In this document: positions 48,488 to 48,921 of the stretch, piece after piece
How positions within the stretch are numbered: position 1 is the first letter of the stretch
Layout of the letters: each line of letters begins with the position of its first letter
Source of the DNA: an uncultured Clostridia bacterium
Lineage (GTDB): Bacteria > Bacillota > Clostridia > Christensenellales > UBA1242
Assembly: GCA_930971385.1 (NCBI GenBank)
Contig: CAKNGB010000005.1
Span: 24,228-88,227, forward strand
Length of the DNA stretch: 64,000 bases
Direction: 5' to 3'
The notes under the pieces: generated by a model
The model's input: the letters and a program-made list of their open reading frames with translations, nothing else
The model's database searches: none
What the model was told of the DNA's origin: nothing
Translations under genes and position numbers: made by a program

Positions 48488-48500
48488 ATAATAATTAAAA

Positions 48501-48535
48501 AAAATCACTAAAAAATTAATTTTAGTGATTTTTTT
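48501..48535 (+). terminator. intrinsic terminator after tmk
   Basis: AAATCACTAAAA / TTTTAGTGATTT followed by T run. Confidence 0.8.
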
Positions 48536-48620
48536 GCATTATAAAACCGATTTTTTGTGTTTTTTAATTATTTATGATTTTAATTAAAATTTATTTTATA
48601 AAATAGTTTAAAAATTAATT

Positions 48621-48761
48621 TATATTATCGGAGGTCGAACCAAGCACGAAGTATTTGAGTGAGACCGATGTTTATACAAACAGTGATGGCGAGCAAAGCG
48701 CGCAAATTCGTCAGAATTTATTAAAAATTTATGCCAATAAATTTTTTAACATCACATAGTT
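48621..48761. repeat. structured tandem element, unit 1
   Basis: Starts TATATTATCGGA; hairpin GGTC..CAAGCAC-gaa-GTATTTG..GACC (48633-48666); GTGATG (48683-48688)/CATCAC (48750-48755) enclosing AAATTC-gtca-GAATTT and AAAAATTTAT-gcca-ATAAATTTTT. Confidence 0.75.
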
Positions 48762-48911
48762 TATATTATCGGAAGCCGAGTCAAGCACAACTTTAGTTGT
48801 ATTTGAGCGAGGCTGATGTTCATACATACTATGTGATGAACACAATTTATTGTGTGTTTTGCGTTTAGCAAAATTAAAACTTAACTTGTTTAAGTTTTAA
48901 CATCACATAGT
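48762..48911. repeat. structured tandem element, unit 2
   Basis: Starts TATATTATCGGA (141-bp offset); hairpin AGCC..CAAGCACAAC-ttta-GTTGTATTTG..GGCT (48774-48814); 11-bp closing stem ACTATGTGATG (48828-48838)/CATCACATAGT (48901-48911) enclosing three perfect hairpins. Confidence 0.8.
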
Positions 48912-48921
48912 TTATAATATA

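Follow-up and report, generated by a model that had tools for sequence, protein, structure and literature searches.

The bcr repeats of the Bacillus cereus group are gene-less intergenic sequences of 100 to 400 bp that occur in many copies (11 to 130 for bcr1) within one bacterial group, and their movement has been proposed to resemble site-specific recombination and has been linked to the motif TTTAT (PMC6542083). Conserved RNA folds occur in some bcr families, and about half of the copies are transcribed as part of mRNAs (PMC3446304). REPs are palindromes of 20 to 40 bp (PMC3733652). The repeats described here form a pair in a stretch of 64,000 nucleotides from an uncultured Clostridia bacterium, the whole of which is referred to as the window. 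They are best read as nearest in kind to bcr1-bcr18, a likeness drawn from published descriptions. As with the bcr repeats, the unit is gene-less, intergenic and present in many copies, its length (120 to 154 bp) falls within 100 to 400 bp, and TTTAT stands at its ends: the pentamer precedes the fixed ATTATCGG at the left end in 68 of 103 non-redundant clusters (background about 1%) and closes the unit at the right end in 89 of 103. Unlike them, it is hosted by one genus of Clostridia and by other families of the order, and it has a fixed hairpin (P1), a three-hairpin multibranch (P2), interchangeable modules and head-to-tail arrays. In the pair, a non-autonomous mobile DNA repeat, putatively recognised through its fold, is probably present twice in tandem. 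The repeat family is apparently undescribed, and the literature library searched held no publication describing a repeat of this kind from this bacterial group.

The pair lies between a thymidylate kinase gene (tmk, + strand) and a convergent GNAT gene (- strand). Its two units stand head to tail, with TATATTATCGGA at 48621 and again at 48762, the 141-bp offset reported in the initial annotation. Counting the TTTATATT junction that is common to both, the full units measure 144 to 154 bp in the window; family-wide, lengths range from about 120 to 154 bp, with about 140 bp being typical, and no gene lies inside. Each unit consists of the 5' hairpin P1 followed by the stem P2, which encloses three hairpins, so that there are five helices in all:

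48619..48623, + strand: TTTAT pentamer at the left junction, target-like and not fixed across copies
48621..48764, + strand: unit 1, full element, 144 bp (nhmmer model 1-147; covariance model R1, 100.7 bits)
48627..48669, + strand: P1 hairpin of unit 1, with ATC/GAT, GGTC/GACC (48633-48636 pairing with 48663-48666), tandem GA/GA and a long-type apical stem
48683..48755, + strand: P2 multibranch of unit 1, with a GTGATG/CATCAC closing stem and three hairpins of types A3, B2 and C2
48760..48764, + strand: TTTAT at the junction of the units, the end of unit 1 and start of unit 2
48762..48915, + strand: unit 2, full element, 154 bp (nhmmer, 113.5 bits)
48768..48817, + strand: P1 hairpin of unit 2, long type, CAAGCACAAC/GTTGTATTTG, with AGCC (48774-48777) pairing with GGCT (48811-48814)
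48828..48911, + strand: P2 multibranch of unit 2, with an 11-bp closing stem (48828-48838 with 48901-48911)
48840..48855, + strand: hairpin A of unit 2, ACACAA/TTGTGT
48857..48873, + strand: hairpin B of unit 2, TTTTGC/GCAAAA
48876..48898, + strand: hairpin C of unit 2, AAAACTTAA/TTAAGTTTT
48911..48915, + strand: TTTAT closing unit 2, the element's own right end

The architecture originally proposed for the pair is exact in the sequence: the outer P1 pairs of the two units differ by two double-sided changes, the closing stem of unit 2 has 11 bp and encloses three hairpins, and unit 1 repeats this layout with other hairpins. Model R1 also scores 98 bits at G000:C5:72989-73142, which is unit 2 in the window's own genome. 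On the + strand, both units fold better than 200 of 200 dinucleotide shuffles, as RNA (z -3.3 for unit 1 and -5.6 for unit 2) and as DNA (z -4.9 and -7.6, respectively). The - strand also folds well, with z of -2.4 and -6.8 as RNA and of -3.8 and -8.0 as DNA.

Throughout the genus, units start with ATATTATCGGAAG and end with GTTTAT. P1 is built, in order, of ATC/GAT, a variable 4-bp stem, tandem GA/GA, an AC/GT pair and an apical stem that is either long (CAAGC..ATTTG) or short (CTTGCTTGCAAG). The P2 closing stem reaches up to 11 bp (CTATGTGATG/CATCACATAG) and encloses hairpins A, B and C. Two of these, A and B, have versions that are unrelated in sequence, either ACACAA/TTGTGT together with TTTTGC/GCAAAA or GTGTGC/GCACAC together with AAATTC/GAATTT. 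In a set of 184 distinct units, the type of P1 combines freely with that of P2 (53:41 and 33:23) and the types of hairpins B and C are linked (83 and 52 versus 7 and 2). The units are thus mosaics of modules.

This clover-like fold is kept even where almost every letter has changed. Standard pairs fill 96.6% of the cells in an alignment of 103 distinct rows, 28 of its 46 pairs have changed on both sides, and slid controls pair only 34 to 42%. Double-change cells number 454, compared to a shuffled mean of 140, and 0 of 500 shuffles reached this value; such counts lean towards structure, as the alignments were fitted to the model and shuffling overstates covariation among related sequences. The effect size and the slid controls make chance unlikely. 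In a wider set, which includes a few wrong-strand matches, 36 of the 46 pairs have changed on both sides. The claim that shape is conserved while primary sequence diverges therefore holds strongly under covariation tests. G.T (64) and A.C (44) mismatches are both rare and about equal, so that neither strand is singled out, unlike what is seen under ordinary RNA selection. The scarcity of wobble pairs, the near equality of these counts and the wholesale replacement of perfect hairpins would also suit palindromic repeats whose arms are kept complementary by template-switch correction and not by selection on the fold. However, the number and order of helices are kept across families despite sequence replacement, and the unit ends and P1 apex are near-invariant. 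We regard template-switch correction as a very improbable explanation.

The locus is not a unique ncRNA locus, and the unit is a dispersed intergenic repeat. An initial DNA search matched the window's own genome eleven times, at several sites, and showed many more copies in related genomes of the genus. At least 12 units are present in the former, per-genome copy numbers being lower bounds because at most 28 candidates were scored per genome. An iterated profile built from both units gave 68 matches in a first set of loci, and over all loci examined there were 299 units in 221 clusters, with some loci counted twice. Wherever clusters held several units (67 of 67), these were arranged head to tail, 2 to 4 units each. 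The search with a covariance model suggested in the initial annotation did recover further homologues, with R1 matching 63 of the 112 genomes of the genus as well as other families of the order (see below). Candidatus Caccovivens faecavium is among the named records that bear the pattern, as are many uncultured Clostridia MAGs; the window's genus is putatively Caccovivens, in the order Christensenellales. Many contigs terminate within units, as repeats are expected to cause.

No placed cluster lies inside an ORF, and none is encoded by the units themselves. Relative to the coding strand around them, the units show no orientation bias (59:48, p 0.33), and the neighbouring genes are heterogeneous. 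A cis-regulatory RNA of one gene was rejected, since almost every site has different neighbours and the units point either way at random. A broader alternative is a functional ncRNA, in which the unit would be transcribed, its RNA fold would be selected, the copies would act as small RNAs or UTR elements and duplication would have raised their number. The strong conservation of the fold fits this reading, as does the retention of some copies at one tRNA locus in four species. Likewise, several members in other families begin with a TATAAT-like sequence, and a TTGACA-like box is plausible 17 to 18 bp upstream of it (L317, L330, by inspection of the sequence). However, -35 boxes are not enriched upstream in the window's subfamily (3.33 mismatches versus 3.34 in shuffles), G.T barely exceeds A.C although RNA selection tolerates G.U, the genomic neighbourhoods and orientations vary as described, and site occupancy is polymorphic. 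Rfam gave no match above the gathering threshold in the whole window, nor at a permissive threshold, and known Rfam RNAs, ribozymes included, were rejected. Given the low and nearly equal numbers of G.T and A.C mismatches and the lack of -35 boxes, a function as RNA is not favoured, and the ncRNA explanation as a whole appears unlikely.

Occupancy differs between related genomes at several places. Just after yebC (named from sequence), a unit is present in G045 and absent in G071, G048 and G076; at another site G022 carries a unit that G071 apparently lacks, and at one locus G045 carries more tandem units than G074. A base-exact empty site was sought among the genus genomes and none was recovered because the flanks are too diverged between species, so that these comparisons demonstrate presence and absence. 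Dispersed copies, site polymorphism, tandem arrays, target preference and the lack of a tie to neighbouring genes together support a mobile repeat, and the units are very probably mobile. Thus, where the initial annotation had left the choice between a structured ncRNA and a folding-dependent mobile repeat, the latter is supported by dispersal, polymorphism, arrays and target, and the former is not supported for the window's subfamily.

Weighing against mobility, some copies are old and stable. In G016, G021, G042 and G069, units of one subfamily are located at the 3' end of tRNA-Val; the right end of the unit is antisense to the end of the tRNA, and the opposite end has a direct repeat. The surrounding genes are the same in all four species, and these copies therefore mark one old insertion. 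The 3' end of each of the following genes provides one strand of the P2 stem of the adjacent unit:

L298, 1980-2055: tRNA-Val(tac)
L299, 3191-3266: tRNA-Val(tac)
L300, 3550-3625: tRNA-Val(tac)
L301, 8298-8373: tRNA-Val(tac)

No integrase was found among the genes neighbouring the tRNA-Val arrays.

The preference for particular flanks extends to the right side, where the flank begins with ATT in 65 of 103 clusters and ATTAT is preferred. Left and right pentamers were identical slightly more often than in shuffles (63 cases versus 59, p 0.03), and variants of the left pentamer seldom reappear on the right. No terminal inverted repeats were found, ATATTATCGG and CATCACATAGTTTAT not being inverted copies. 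Like the MITEs of DDE transposons, the unit is small, non-autonomous, dispersed and associated with an AT-rich target, but unlike these it has neither terminal inverted repeats nor a clear target duplication, and its arrays run head to tail. The simplest reading of the junction sequences would be conservative insertion into an AT-rich intergenic TTTAT^ATTAT-like site (empty form TTTATATTAT), with no duplication beyond the obligatory AT. The left flank would keep the TTT of the target, the element would begin with ATTATCGG and end with GTTTAT, and the right flank would keep ATT(AT). The junction between units, GTTTATATTATCGG, resembles the target, so that copies could accumulate head to tail, and arrays may then expand, contract and swap P1 and P2 modules. 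The folded single strand formed by P1 and P2 would be the most likely feature recognised by a recombinase or transposase acting in trans, possibly on a circular or single-stranded intermediate.

A screen of 112 genomes for Y1, resolvase and tyrosine recombinase genes identified no mobilising gene, and no recombinase or integrase motif was found beside most copies. One version of the mobile-repeat reading is a satellite of the IS200/IS605 type, comparable to REP/RAYT systems, in which a Y1 transposase would act in trans on single-stranded hairpin ends. Like REPs and REPINs with TnpA-REP (RAYT) and like IS200/IS605 derivatives, the units are small, gene-less, hairpin-forming and intergenic and lie beside a short fixed motif. 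Their structured ends, the insertion 3' of this motif and the lack of a clear target duplication would agree with Y1 activity, and genomes with Y1 genes are richer in copies than those without (mean 10.9 versus 3.6, p 0.001). However, only 13 of 112 genomes have Y1 genes, several of which are fragments, and just 7 of the 20 genomes with 10 or more copies have one. The Y1 genes inspected are plain IS200 elements with the usual terminal hairpins, which are unrelated to P1 and P2; IS200/Y1 ends were therefore rejected as the origin of the unit ends. No inspected Y1 gene is flanked by units as in REP/RAYT systems, and a model search of the Y1 loci found no unit save one neighbour in L266. Moreover, the unit has about 140 bp and five helices and is not a short palindrome with a GTAG or CGTC tag, the right flank too shows a target preference, and orientation relative to the coding strand is unbiased. 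A Y1 satellite is thus quite improbable. The known IS end and the terminator array named as alternative identities in the initial annotation can be set aside, as there is no IS-end match and the pair is not a terminator array. Among the loci L263-L279, several IS200-type Y1 genes are truncated or have internal stops, and the window's own genome has one partial Y1 copy (G000:C4:80211-80447).

Integron attC sites and cassette arrays combine a folded single strand, head-to-tail accretion and a logic of reciprocal recombination. The units share these three traits, although they carry no cassette gene, their two ends are not mutually complementary and most copies have no adjoining integrase. In a second version of the mobile-repeat reading, a circular unit would be the substrate of a serine recombinase or an Xer-like tyrosine recombinase that binds the fold, in the manner of integron cassettes. 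A target preference in both flanks around an obligatory AT is as expected for reciprocal recombination with a 2-bp core, the arrays run head to tail, and the tRNA-Val subfamily ends exactly at the tRNA 3' end, with a direct repeat. In G248, a distance of about 45 bp separates the left end of an array of two units from the start of a gene for a small serine recombinase (Resolvase, PF00239; L308 6265-6876, + strand), a candidate mobiliser, as a lead only. Genes for Xer-like integrases are present in 111 of 112 genomes. However, their number does not clearly track copy number (rho 0.18, p 0.06), most copies have no adjoining recombinase, and the resolvase family, found in 62 of 112 genomes, is absent from G000, G080, G099 and G041, each of which has 10 or more copies. 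This version is at present a tentative possibility. In G050, a unit lies near an integrase gene (L158 7085-7223, L121 259-397); its flanks are 92% identical in G053, though other flanks of both genomes differ, and may mark the boundary of an integrative element. A composite transposon was considered for L027, where a gene lies between two inverted copies, and was rejected, as the encoded protein is a glycosyltransferase of family 28 and adjoins gyrB.

Beyond the genus, an order-wide search with R1 gave full-length matches in three other families (G248, G309, G327). Among 396 genomes of the order, the P1-apex pattern AACTTGCTTGCAAGRGTT matched 14, which belong to families f19, f20, f25 and f32, and its reversed control matched none; a shorter P1-apex pattern had no match in 399 genomes across the phylum. 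Some apex-pattern matches lie in coding sequence or consist of P1 alone (L316, L321, L325) and those in f19 are doubtful, so that at least four further families were counted: f6, f20, f25 and f32. The remaining loci have P1 and a stem enclosing hairpins of completely different sequence. The lower stem of P1 around its invariant 16-mer covaries, with 38 double-change cells versus 11.6 in shuffles, and is 82.9% paired versus 33 to 53% when slid. No copies were found in viral contigs, phages or plasmids, and blastn against all PLSDB plasmids gave nothing; phage, plasmid or viral origin was rejected, as phage matches were confined to the AT-rich flank.

A more far-reaching reading, which we consider doubtful, is a new class of fold-directed, order-wide element, identified by its architecture rather than its sequence and moved, possibly via a folded single-stranded circle or an RNA intermediate, by a recombinase not previously linked to such repeats. 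Natural variants of the fold are numerous and spread over several bacterial families, with almost none of the sequence left unchanged, and the repeat family could therefore be used to test whether mobile elements can be recognised by shape alone. The units also seem to break short-read assemblies of these gut bacteria and mark genome change in uncultured lineages.

Several minor observations were made. Near position 1501 of L325, in G342, the conserved P1 hairpin stands by itself just upstream of dnaN (named from sequence), with P2 apparently missing. In the window, tmk is followed at 48495-48545 by a terminator-like, AT-rich inverted repeat (AATCACTAAAAA...TTTTTAGTGATTTTTT), and similar AT-rich palindromes match several genus genomes without the 140-bp unit. 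A single ORF of 12,556 aa occupies 8841-46511 (+ strand) of the window. Ten Listeria-Bacteroides repeat domains (Flg_new) are located within its first 2,000 aa and its C-terminus resembles a membrane anchor; its predicted product is a giant surface protein, encoded in a genome of 1.05 Mb.
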